DNA from: Acidimicrobiia bacterium
GTDB taxonomy: Bacteria > Actinomycetota > Acidimicrobiia > Spongiisociales > UBA5794
Reading direction: 5' to 3'
NCBI GenBank assembly: GCA_036396535.1
Contig: DASWKR010000016.1
Location: 1 to 43,464 of the forward strand
DNA length: 43,464 nt
The translations under genes were made by a program, and so were the position numbers. Numbering within the stretch: position 1 is the first letter of the stretch; each line of letters begins with the position of its first letter. This document shows, one piece after another, positions 3,192-13,092 of this stretch. The notes beneath the pieces were generated by a model. It saw only the letters and a program-made list of their open reading frames with translations. It was not told the origin of the DNA and did not search any database.

Positions 3192-3262
3192 GCGGATGTA
3201 GTTCAATGGCAGAACACGAGCTTCCCAAGCTCGGAGTGGGGGTTCGATTCCCCTCATCCGCT
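3192..3262 (+). tRNA. tRNA-Gly (anticodon CCC)
   Basis: A 71-nt cloverleaf. Acceptor GCGGATG pairs with CATCCGC. The D arm contains AGTTCAATGGCAGAAC. The anticodon stem CGAGC/GCTCG encloses loop TTCCCAA, giving anticodon CCC, which reads GGG. The T arm is GGGGG-TTCGATT-CCCCT with one G.U pair. Discriminator base is T; CCA is not encoded. The dcd start codon lies only 2 nt after the discriminator base. Confidence 0.95.
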
Positions 3263-9059: not shown

Positions 9060-10184
9060 CTATCCCCGCACCCCTCGCAGCGAGATGAGGTGCTTGTTGA
9101 CGCACGCCGCACGGCCGGCCCCGGTGGCGTCGAGGTCGGGGACGCCCGCCAGGCATTCCGTCGTGACGTGGTTGCAGCGCGGAGCGAAACCGCACCGATC
9201 GGCAGGGGCGTCCGTGATGCGCGGCGGGGAGCCTCTGATCGGTCGTAGCCGTTCGGAGCCTGCCCAGGGTATCGACCCGAGCAGCCCCTCGGTGTAGGGA
9301 TGGCGCGGCGAGGCGAAGATCTGCTCGACGGGGCCTTCCTCGACGATGCGGCCGAGGTACATCACGATCACCCTGGTTGCGAGTGAGGCCACGGTCGCCA
9401 GGTCGTGGGTGACGAGGATCATCGCCATGGCGCGCCGGTCACGCATGTCGCGGATCAACGAGAGCACCGATGCGGCGACAGAGGCATCGAGCCCCGAGAG
9501 CGGCTCATCCGCCACGAGGAGGGCCGGGGCCTTGACGAGGGCCGCCGCCAGCATCGCTCGCTGCGCCTGTCCCTGGCTGAGCTCGTGACGAAAGGACGAG
9601 AACGCCCGGGCTCGCGGGAGCTGCACCTCGCCGAGGGCGTCGAGCACGCGTTCGTTGATCATCTCCGTGGTGAGTCCGGTGTGCTCGTCGAGGGGCTCAC
9701 CTGCCTGGATCCCGATGAGCTCGGCCGGTGCCCAGCTTCTCACCGCATCCTGGAACATCACCCCGATCTCGGTGCCGAGCACCTCGCGGTAGTCGTCGTC
9801 GAGCAGCTCTTCCATGAAGCGCTCCCCGCGCCTCGGCCTTCTCTTGGGGAGGAAGCGGCGCGGCGCTCTGCTGCGCTCGAGCTGCCTCGTGGGACGGAGC
9901 TGCAGGTCGCGGAAGCGGATGGTGCCGGCGACGACCTTTGCGGTGGGGCCGAGCAGGCCGAGAGCGCCCATCGTGGTCAGCGTCTTGCCCGACCCGGACT
10001 CGCCGACGATGGCCAGGACCTCACCCGGCGCGACGGAGAAGTCGATCCCGTGGACCACCTGGGTCCACTCGCCCCCGAGGCGCGGTCCGAAGGGCTCGAC
10101 GAAGATTCGCTCGTCTCCCCGACCGGTCGGATCCATGACGGCGACGCGCAGCCCCGTCACCTCGAACAGCTGCTGTGCGCACAC
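9060..10184 (-). CDS. Oligopeptide/dipeptide-type ABC transporter ATP-binding protein (OppD/DppD-like), orphan
   Basis: A 374-residue ATPase of the peptide-importer class. Walker A GESGSGKT, Q-loop VMFQDAVRSWAP (usually FQDP..SLNP), Walker B LLVADEPLSGLD, switch His in LVTHDLATV, and the class's C-terminal block PYTEGLLGSIP followed by the Cys cluster CGFAPRCNHVTTEC. Two oddities: the signature reads LSQGQAQR in place of LSGGxxQR, and about 40 extra basic and acidic residues (RSRAPRRFLPKRRPRR onward) sit between Walker A and the Q-loop. No peptide permease or binding protein is in the window. GTG start with GGAGG upstream. It lies just upstream of the FtsX operon on the same strand. Confidence 0.8.
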   Translation of the reverse strand: MCAQQLFEVTGLRVAVMDPTGRGDERIFVEPFGPRLGGEWTQVVHGIDFSVAPGEVLAIVGESGSGKTLTTMGALGLLGPTAKVVAGTIRFRDLQLRPTRQLERSRAPRRFLPKRRPRRGERFMEELLDDDYREVLGTEIGVMFQDAVRSWAPAELIGIQAGEPLDEHTGLTTEMINERVLDALGEVQLPRARAFSSFRHELSQGQAQRAMLAAALVKAPALLVADEPLSGLDASVAASVLSLIRDMRDRRAMAMILVTHDLATVASLATRVIVMYLGRIVEEGPVEQIFASPRHPYTEGLLGSIPWAGSERLRPIRGSPPRITDAPADRCGFAPRCNHVTTECLAGVPDLDATGAGRAACVNKHLISLRGVRG

Positions 10185-10243: not shown

Positions 10244-10609
10244 ATGAAGGTCAGCAACATCATCCTGCGGGTCGCGTCGATGGAGCGGTCACTGGAGTTC
10301 TATCGCGACGCCCTTGGGCTGGGGGTGCTCTCCGAGTCGCCCGAGTTCTCGTTCCTCGACGCCGGCAACATCCGGGTCGCCCTCAACGCCGATGCGACCC
10401 AGCAGCCGGACGCGACCAACAGCGAGGTGGTGCTCGAGGTCGGGGACGTGCGCTCGGCGTACGAGGAGATGAAGGCACGCGGCGTGCCATTCGAGATCGA
10501 GCCCAGGATGGTGATGGCGCACGACGGCCGCGAGTTGCACGCCGCCCACTTCCGCGACCCTGATGGGCACGTGTGGTCGATCACCGGCTGGCTCCCTCCC
10601 AGTGACTAG
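10244..10609 (+). CDS. VOC (glyoxalase/bleomycin resistance) family protein
   Basis: A 121-residue single VOC domain of two beta-alpha-beta-beta-beta modules: ILRVASMERSLEFYRDALGL at the start and HAAHFRDPDGHVWSITGW at the end. The family includes metal-dependent lyases, dioxygenases and resistance proteins; DPDGH carries the usual C-terminal acidic/His pattern, but the substrate cannot be told. It starts 59 nt from the divergent OppD-like gene and appears leaderless. A perfect 8-bp hairpin follows its stop. Confidence 0.8.
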   Translation: MKVSNIILRVASMERSLEFYRDALGLGVLSESPEFSFLDAGNIRVALNADATQQPDATNSEVVLEVGDVRSAYEEMKARGVPFEIEPRMVMAHDGRELHAAHFRDPDGHVWSITGWLPPSD

Positions 10610-10628
10610 TCATCGCGCGCCGCGATGA
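10610..10628 (+). terminator. Hairpin directly after the VOC gene
   Basis: TCATCGCG-CGC-CGCGATGA, a perfect 8-bp stem starting one base after the TAG stop. No T run follows, so it may be a weak terminator or a 3'-end stabiliser. Confidence 0.4.
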
Positions 10629-10677
10629 ATGACCCAGGTCGGGGGCGCAAAGAGATCAAGGAACAGGGGCGTTCCTG

Positions 10678-10697
10678 CCGATGACATCGGGTACAAG
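10678..10697 (+). promoter_or_regulatory. Palindrome plus GTACAAG, possible promoter of a small RNA
   Basis: The perfect palindrome CCGATG-A-CATCGG (10678-10690) is followed at once by GTACAAG. The layout resembles the tRNA-Gly promoter, where CCGAGA-TG-TCTCGG is followed by GTACACT. The -10 match is imperfect. Confidence 0.3.
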
Positions 10698-10699
10698 AG

Positions 10700-10820
10700 A
10701 GAATTCGGGCGGTGTTCCTGCACTCCACCGGAACACAACGGAGGTCCCCTTCCCTCCGACTCCTCCTCAGAGCGACCGTCCGGATGAACGAGCAGCCCCT
10801 TCGGGGGCTGCTCTCTCTTT
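10700..10820 (+). ncRNA. Candidate small RNA with C-rich loops and strong terminator
   Basis: The gap between the VOC gene and psuG holds three successive hairpins: GTGTTCC/GGAACAC around 10712-10736, CGGAGG/CCTCCG at 10739-10758, and a 10-bp terminator stem at 10790-10813. A largely unpaired tract around 10753-10772 contains CTCCTCC, complementary to a Shine-Dalgarno GGAGGAG. The first loop also has CTCCACC. No reading frame of note fits. No known RNA family (tmRNA, RNase P, 6S, SRP) is matched by eye. A psuG leader is the alternative, but psuG has its own likely start signal after the terminator. Confidence 0.4.
10790..10820 (+). terminator. Rho-independent terminator
   Basis: GAGCAGCCCC-TTCG-GGGGCTGCTC, a perfect 10-bp stem with a UUCG tetraloop, then TCTCTTT. 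It is one of the clearest intrinsic terminators in the window. It lies 180 nt after the VOC stop and 63 nt before psuG. Confidence 0.85.
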
Positions 10821-10882
10821 GTGACCCGTCGTCGCGGTGACCCATCGGCGCCGGCCTGAGGCGGCGTGCCACAATCCGACCG

Positions 10883-11779
10883 ATGATCCGGGTCGCACCC
10901 CGCGTCGCTGCGGCGCTCGCCTCTTCCTCCCCCGTCGTGGCGCTCGAGTCGACGGTGATCGCCCACGGCCTCCCGCGGCCGACCAACCTCGAGATGGCGA
11001 CGCTCCTCGAGGCACGCCTCGACGACATGGGCGTGGTCCCGGCGACGGTCGGCGTCGTCGACGGCGAGGTCGTGGTCGGGATGGCGCCGGACGAGATCGC
11101 CCGCATCGCCGCAGGGGGCGACGTCTCCAAGGTGAGCATGCGCGACCTGGCGGCTGTGTCGGTGGCGGGCGCCCTGGGCGCCACGACGGTCGCCACGACG
11201 ATGTGGGCCGCGGCGCGGACAGGGGTGCGCGTCATGGCGACCGGAGGCATCGGAGGGGTCCACCGCGGCGCCGGCTCCACTTTCGACGTCTCCGCCGACA
11301 TGGGAGCGCTGGCAACGAACCGCGTTGCCGTCGTCTGCTCGGGCGCCAAGTCGGTGCTCGACATCCCGAAGACGCTCGAAGTCCTGGAGAGCCTCGGCGT
11401 CCCCGTCGTCGGCTACCGGACCCACGAGTTTCCCGCCTTCTACTCGCGCTCGAGCCGGCTGCCCCTCGATCACGTCGTGACATCCGCGCGCCACGCGGCG
11501 GAGGTGATCCGTGCCCACGCCGAGCTCGGGCTCAGTTCGGGCATCGTGTTCGCCAACCCTGTTCCCGAGGCGGAGGCTCTGCCGGCCGAGGACGCCGAGG
11601 CGCTCGTGTCGGCAGCCGTGGCCGCAGCTTCCGACCAAGGTGTCGAAGGCAAGGACCTCACGCCCTTCCTGCTCGCCTTCATCGCCGATGGAAGCGCCGG
11701 TCGTTCGCTGCAGGCGAACCTGGCTCTCCTCGAGTCGAACACGATCGTGGCGGGCGAGATCGCAGCAGCGCTCGCCTGA
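10883..11779 (+). CDS. psuG: Pseudouridine-5'-phosphate glycosidase
   Basis: Reversibly cleaves pseudouridine 5'-phosphate into uracil and ribose 5-phosphate, the second step in pseudouridine breakdown in the cytoplasm. The 298-residue protein matches the PsuG/IndA family over its length: VALESTVIAHGLPRP near the start, the metal and substrate region TGGIGGVHRGA, and CSGAKSVLDIPKTLE with a conserved Lys. The kinase PsuK that makes the substrate is not adjacent. The ATG at 10883 lies 7 nt after CACAAT, a possible -10 box, again without a ribosome binding site. Confidence 0.92.
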   Translation: MIRVAPRVAAALASSSPVVALESTVIAHGLPRPTNLEMATLLEARLDDMGVVPATVGVVDGEVVVGMAPDEIARIAAGGDVSKVSMRDLAAVSVAGALGATTVATTMWAAARTGVRVMATGGIGGVHRGAGSTFDVSADMGALATNRVAVVCSGAKSVLDIPKTLEVLESLGVPVVGYRTHEFPAFYSRSSRLPLDHVVTSARHAAEVIRAHAELGLSSGIVFANPVPEAEALPAEDAEALVSAAVAAASDQGVEGKDLTPFLLAFIADGSAGRSLQANLALLESNTIVAGEIAAALA

Positions 11780-12990: not shown

Positions 12991-13092
12991 CGCCGCGCTT
13001 CCCTATGTACGACGCCGCGGGCTGGCGCGCCATCGAAATCTGTCACAAGCAACCGGTAGGACAGTGACACAATCAGAGCAGTGGAGGACAGA

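Follow-up and report, generated by a model that had tools for sequence, protein, structure and literature searches.

Between a VOC gene and psuG, an Acidimicrobiia genome (assembly GCA_036396535.1) carries a stretch for which a sequence-only reading had proposed a small C-rich RNA with an anti-Shine-Dalgarno tract. Is this a separate RNA, which sigma factor would transcribe it, and on what would it act? We addressed these questions in the window, that is, the whole 43,464-nt stretch of contig DASWKR010000016.1 that was analysed, and in related genomes. Conservation, covariation, a promoter-like site and a terminator of its own strongly support a structured small RNA, as judged from sequence comparison. 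The location between the two genes is correct, and every element named in the sequence-only reading lies where it was placed (Table 1).

Table 1. Features of the RNA locus and neighbouring genes (positions in the window).
Feature	Position	Strand	Remark
ABC ATPase	9060-10184		window gene
VOC gene	10244-10609	same as RNA	
GACTAGTC, left half of bipartite upstream element, presumed activator site	10604..10611	+	16/17 same-family copies, constant 16-17 nt gap
AATGACCC, right half of bipartite element (consensus AATGGTCC)	10628..10635	+	41 nt before -10
TCAAG, -35 of promoter-like site, flagellar/WhiG type	10656..10660	+	motif also before pilB, 14/21 loci
GCCGATGA, -10 of promoter-like site, flagellar/WhiG type, spacer 16	10677..10684	+	GCCGAT, at most 1/6 letters changed, 32/32 copies
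Predicted transcript, about 130 nt	10691..10820	+	from promoter and terminator positions; 5' end from -10
Conserved RNA core, 82 nt	10704..10785	+	models R1 and R2
Outer stem P1	10704-10712 with 10776-10784	+	both-sided changes in 8/9 pairs
Hairpin P2, ACUCC in loop	10712..10736 (strands 10712-10718/10730-10736)	+	both-sided changes, 6/6 modelled pairs
Hairpin P3, CGGAGG-UCCCCUUC-CCUCCG	10739..10758 (strands 10739-10744/10753-10758)	+	nearly invariant
Joining segment ACUCCUCCUCAGAG, including CUCCUCC (10760-10766)	10759..10772	+	partly paired in small stem
Intrinsic terminator, UUCG tetraloop	10790..10820 (stem-loop 10790-10813, then TCTCTTT)	+	
psuG	10883-11779	same as RNA	
dnaB	at 13081		window gene

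Fold, covariation and distribution of the RNA

The 143-nt stretch folds with a predicted energy of -66.1 kcal/mol (z = -4.75), which none of 200 shuffled sequences equalled. Both the two hairpins in a row (P2 and P3) and the UUCG terminator with its T-rich tail are present as previously described. Moreover, P2 and P3 branch from a junction that an outer stem, P1, closes; this stem was absent from that description. The CTCCTCC tract is also there, but only partly open, with a mean unpaired probability of 0.55 for ACUCCUCCU. The loop of P3 has a mean unpaired probability of 1.00 in the window and at least 0.8 in 29 of the 32 copies identified below (the exceptions are L132, L136 and L149); it reads UCCCCUUC in most copies, and no other open C/U-rich element is as well conserved. 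For the joining segment the unpaired probability ranges from 0.28 to 0.98 (29 copies; no value for L023, L024 and L027), and in families f3, f4 and f6 this segment reads CUCUUCCC, so that CUCCUCC is not kept there. All copies have a C/U-rich P3 loop and a C/U-rich joining segment. The stretch had been described as lacking a reading frame; mechanical ORFs of 47 and 52 amino acids do cross 10678-10820, but core length among same-family relatives (80-85 nt) differs by single bases, which argues against coding.

The covariance search in related genomes that the sequence-only reading called for, combined with a motif search, found homologues with conserved hairpins in 32 genomes from five families of one order. 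Searched by plain DNA comparison, 41 genomes (our own among them) gave ten matches, namely the own copy, eight other family genomes and L010, which we rejected as a chance 26-nt DNA match. Covariance model R1 found one copy each in 17 of 50 family genomes, and matched 11 of 296 class genomes (ten of the same family and one from another). Across the order (138 genomes), model R2 matched 30 genomes with an E of 0.1 or less, and 29 of these, spanning families f1, f3, f4, f6 and f8, were accepted; L140 (G268, f2) was rejected, as it lies inside a coding sequence and lacks a terminator. Matches to the motif CTTCC(N)TCCKACTCYTCC occurred in 27 of 395 class genomes, in 24 of them at the RNA, and three new copies brought the total to 32; the matches in G223, G255 and G137 are not the RNA, and the 257 listed genomes of other orders gave no match to this motif. 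Candidates L150, L166, L167 and L168, which lie within coding sequence or lack promoter and terminator, were discarded. Weaker copies (25 to 40 bits) were accepted on the joint recurrence of promoter-like site, core and terminator, not on score alone. One genome, G015 (C144), holds a second weak model match (E 0.0365).

With the 32 copies aligned (30 distinct), standard pairs occupy 90.4% of cells (shuffles, 75.4%), both-sided changes occur in 14 of the 20 modelled pairs and the covariation score is 0.393 against 0.143 +/- 0.013, in an alignment that was fitted to the covariance model and is thus biased toward the structure. None of 500 shuffles reached any of the five measures taken, and sliding the strands abolished the signal. 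A MAFFT alignment of nine sequences gave a covariation score of 0.245 against 0.167 +/- 0.022. P1 and P2 covary freely, with 78.6% of cells paired across the modelled P2 pairs, while P3 barely changes: three of its five modelled pairs are fixed on both strands in all 30 distinct copies. The region 3' of the core folds stably, with z < -2 in 29 of 32 copies (it is weaker in L027, L129 and L142), and in relatives the hairpin that comes after the core is of unrelated sequence. A lack of hairpin conservation in relatives had been named as one finding that would count against a small RNA; the hairpins are conserved, and the fold, its covariation, the promoter-like site and the RNA's own terminator all speak in favour of that claim.

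Promoter-like site, upstream element and sigma factor

Upstream of the RNA stands the promoter-like layout TCAAG-N14-16-GCCGAT. The GCCGAT-type -10 lies a short way upstream of P1 in every copy, and TCAAG or TAAAG precedes it by 14-16 nt in most. Tested against letter shuffles, the whole site reaches p <= 0.04 in 23 of 32 copies, and nine sites (L025, L026, L028-L032, L137 and L138) are not significant alone. The consensus reported for flagellar/WhiG promoters is TAAA at -35 and GCCGATAA at -10 (PMC8325347), and TCAAG-N16-GCCGATGA in the window agrees with it at the right spacing. Two f6 copies, with TAAAG-N16 ahead of GCCGATAT and GCCGATCA, come near the flagellar consensus. Taken together, a promoter-like site of the flagellar/WhiG type is conserved upstream of the RNA.

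The bipartite element GACTAGTC-N16/17-AATGGTCC stands farther upstream in the same-family copies, with the exception of L034. Over all 17 copies it matches a mean of 14.0 of 16 letters, against 10.4 +/- 0.9 when shuffled. In 16 copies its end lies 19-20, 30-31 or 41 nt from the -10, in near-helical steps; where the distance is 19-20 nt the -35 departs from TCAAG, and where the element is further off the -35 is TCAAG. This is how class II versus class I activation would be expected to look. Genome-wide, the bipartite pattern did not exceed a reversed control in 24 genomes, and we therefore do not claim it elsewhere on statistics.

Several related arrangements were observed at other sites. By eye, the same half-sites with a GCCGATA site stand before a DivIVA-like gene (L102, G009), and TGACTAGTCA with TTTAG-N15-GCCGATA before flagellin (L113, G017). 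The full layout ACTAGT-N17-AATGGTCC-N19/20-GCCGATA occurs in L107 and L108 (G004 and G022), where it precedes a tRNA-Leu encoded on the opposite strand and a TadE-like pilus gene. A little upstream of the RNA in L131 and L137 (f8), an inverted repeat overlaps the -35 (TTGAGTGGCT spaced from AGCCACTCAA in L131), possibly a different operator in that family.

A FliA_WhiG sigma factor (TIGR02479, over cut-off) is encoded in 43 of 50 family genomes, in 17/17 with the RNA and in 26/33 without it (p = 0.08), so its presence is weak evidence. The sigma factor of our genome is closest to PDB 6pfj (E 2.8e-78; best FliA E 2.5e-43), which we take to be the WhiG-RsiG complex of S. venezuelae; the PDB table names 6pfj only as a sigma factor, and 7lq4 as WhiG. 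Its gene is placed before rpsB, tsf, pyrH and frr, as recognised by eye. RsiG is encoded in the same genome (PF22802, 52.1 bits, over cut-off). Read by eye, its motifs are D(X)3S(X)2R(X)3H(X)3D and E(X)3S(X)2R(X)3Y(X)3E, in which residues are partly changed from the reported E(X)3S(X)2R(X)3Q(X)3D, where Q is often H in the first copy (PMC8325347); in view of the other changes, this RsiG is a putative c-di-GMP binder.

The promoter-like site is shared with pilB. In our genome, a gene for a PilB-type ATPase that contains an MshEN domain has TCAAG-N15-GCCGATG 51 nt upstream, and TCAAG-N14/15-GCCGA lies at most 100 nt from the start of the pilB match in 14 of 21 loci. In Rubrobacter, control of type IV pili by WhiG has been reported, with the flagellar promoter consensus (PMC8325347). 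A search for flagellin gave no match in our genome. Among family genomes, flagellin occurs in 12/17 with the RNA and 4/33 without (p = 5e-5), and by genus in 5/9 and 2/11, respectively (p = 0.16); with our own genome flagellin-less and this genus-level value, flagella were rejected as an obligate partner. WhiG with type IV pili is the most economical context for the RNA, and in relatives with flagella the promoter may also serve a second FliA-like factor.

A flagellar-promoter regex had no match in four loci, and flagellin regions were then read by eye. In six flagellin/sigma intergenic regions (L117, L118, L119, L120, L122 and L124), an inverted repeat TGACYAWT-N5-AATRGTCA lies upstream of flagellin; its half-sites are related to the element before the RNA, and it is probably the operator of a motility regulator. 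In L113-L124 and L128, reading by eye shows a conserved leader motif, GTTGACAYGGATGTTGRC, flanked by the promoter region and by the AAGGAGGT ribosome-binding site of the flagellin genes. In L085 (G000:C28, ~95786-95811), TCAA-N16-GCCGATAG precedes the gene of a PAS histidine kinase by about 50 nt, which makes this gene a candidate further member of the regulon.

Proposed function and likeness to known RNAs

Because the RNA has a WhiG-type promoter, both WhiG and RsiG are encoded and pilB has the same promoter, we read it as a small RNA of a WhiG-transcribed pilus/motility regulon; with moderate confidence, we propose that it is an independent, trans-acting, mRNA-pairing member of a new structured family. 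RNA polymerase with a flagellar-clade sigma factor, most likely WhiG in this flagellin-less genome, would transcribe it, aided by an activator at GACTAGTC-N16/17-AATGGTCC, and WhiG would be held back by the c-di-GMP-dependent anti-sigma factor RsiG. The RNA would be made alongside type IV pili, and in relatives probably alongside flagella. Its open C/U-rich segments (CCCCUU of the P3 loop, ACUCCUCC of the joining segment and ACUCC of the P2 loop) would most likely pair with G-rich ribosome-binding sites, lowering translation of other genes during the motility programme.

Open C/U-rich motifs aimed at G-rich ribosome-binding sites are known from RsaE/RoxS and the rhizobial anti-Shine-Dalgarno RNAs, from which the present RNA differs in fold, promoter and hosts; by sequence, the comparison consisted of the Rfam scans. 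The C-rich loops of B11 repress a target via its G-rich 5' UTR (PMC10470900), and by analogy pairing of the C/U-rich segments with GGAGG-type sites is plausible. The anti-Shine-Dalgarno role first assigned to CUCCUCC is plausible as well, but the tract is half closed, gives way to CUCUUCCC in three families and led to no target. For the target prediction proposed for it we used a crude duplex scan, free of an accessibility term, that covered 135 guessed gene starts from part of the genome; it yielded no convincing target, with pilB at rank 20 and dnaB at rank 80.

An RNA of the same sigma28/WhiG regulon might instead act by binding a protein through the near-invariant P3 hairpin, which we consider unlikely while giving it serious weight. 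Both strands of the P3 stem are fixed, more than pairing by the loop alone demands, in contrast to the covarying P1 and P2; this reading also draws on the loss of the exact anti-Shine-Dalgarno tract in f3, f4 and f6 and on the empty duplex scan. However, the GGAG strand of P3 is paired, and in a typical CsrA site GGAG is not paired as it is in this stem. The open P3 loop, the C/U-rich character of loop and joining segment in every copy and the likeness to small RNAs with C-rich loops (PMC10470900) argue against protein binding as well.

A more specific form of the mRNA-pairing reading, which we offer only tentatively, makes the RNA an arm of the WhiG-RsiG switch: low c-di-GMP would free WhiG, which would lead to pili (and flagella where present) and to a C-rich small RNA that silences a competing programme. 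We know of no earlier WhiG-dependent small RNA and of no earlier link from c-di-GMP to a small RNA via a sigma/anti-sigma pair; if true, this arm would be the first of each. If the mRNA-pairing reading is right, the WhiG-RsiG-c-di-GMP switch extends from proteins to RNA control, and regulation by C-rich loops exists outside the 6C family. The structured RNA family, which has no Rfam match, comes with a named candidate regulator and a phenotype (pili, motility) to look for.

We describe the RNA as one with C-rich loops, probably under a sigma factor of the flagellar clade, and with a fold of its own. 6C RNA has two hairpin loops, each with a run of about six C; here the P3 loop is UCCCCUUC and the P2 loop holds ACUCC. 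RF01066 gave no match in our genome, in 10600-10900 (E up to 10) or in 19 homologous loci (E up to 0.1), and with no such match and no long C runs in the loops, 6C membership was rejected. The two are alike as small RNAs of actinobacterial type with C-rich hairpin loops, and for the two C-string loops of B11, pairing with ribosome-binding sites and repression have been reported (PMC10470900); unlike 6C/B11, the present RNA is a three-element junction closed by P1, with mixed CU loops and a WhiG-type promoter. At gathering score, Rfam 15 recognised only tRNA in the window, and the best sub-threshold match was sbrA (28.9 of 45 bits), over the terminator end.

Small RNAs under flagellar sigma factors include UhpU, MotR, FliX and FlgO of E. 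coli, which are UTR-derived RNAs of an Hfq organism (PMC10578931), and CjNC1 and CjNC4 of Campylobacter, described as sigma28-dependent non-coding RNAs (PMC4626219). Going by these descriptions, the former are set apart from a stand-alone, intergenic RNA of a flagellin-less genome, and the latter are different RNAs from a different phylum. The WhiG-RsiG switch of Streptomyces and Rubrobacter shares with our locus the promoter class, the control of type IV pili (in Rubrobacter) and the presence of both proteins; the term 'small RNA' has no occurrence in the main text of PMC8325347, so that, relative to that text, a small RNA within the regulon would be a novelty. In the open-access papers that we examined, we found no description of a WhiG-dependent small RNA or of an Acidimicrobiia small RNA of this kind.

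Possible housekeeping transcription and neighbouring genes

The upstream region had also been likened to a tRNA-Gly promoter. Both the CCGATGACATCGG palindrome and GTACAAG are indeed present, and upstream of the tRNA-Gly at 3192 stands a similar CGAGATGTCTCG followed by GGTACACT; as a promoter, however, this layout is not supported. Relatives lack the second half of the palindrome and keep GCCGAT, the -10 of another promoter class, and we therefore regard the tRNA-like layout as a local coincidence. That the housekeeping sigma factor is the main one to transcribe the same small RNA, using a TACAAG-like -10 (10692-10697), strikes us as improbable: GGGTACAAG does resemble GGGTACACT before tRNA-Gly, and GTACAA-like letters recur in some f1, f3 and f4 relatives, but f8 copies mostly have 8-13 nt from GCCGATNN to P1 with no TANNNT there, a simple sigma-70 scan found no site, and it is GCCGAT that all copies keep.

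In relatives the RNA adjoins dnaB in six loci (L022, L033, L035, L138, L139 and L141), and its other neighbours are EamA-type permeases, DppD-type ABC ATPases and other genes on either strand (families assigned by Pfam for window genes and one EamA copy, the rest by eye). The neighbourhood is recognisably shared, with no gene constantly up- or downstream in one orientation. As neighbours change identity and strand, the RNA is neither the tail of the VOC mRNA nor a psuG leader, and synteny contradicts both. It is highly improbable that the stretch amounts to no more than the VOC mRNA's 3' end with its terminator, even though the VOC gene lies on the same strand and its end is 69 nt upstream of the -10: the upstream gene (EamA or ABC ATPase) is often divergent in relatives, and core, promoter-like site and terminator are kept there nonetheless. 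A terminator belonging only to the VOC mRNA, which had been named as evidence against the small RNA, is thus not what synteny indicates. A 5' leader of psuG (riboswitch or attenuator), suggested by psuG downstream on the same strand in the window, has almost nothing to recommend it, since in relatives the next gene is dnaB, ROK-like or another, often convergent, and no psuG was seen beside the RNA. A search with psuG gave distant relatives. In L142 (G026), the frame beside the RNA, at the place of dnaB in sister genomes, reads by eye like an intein-bearing DnaB.
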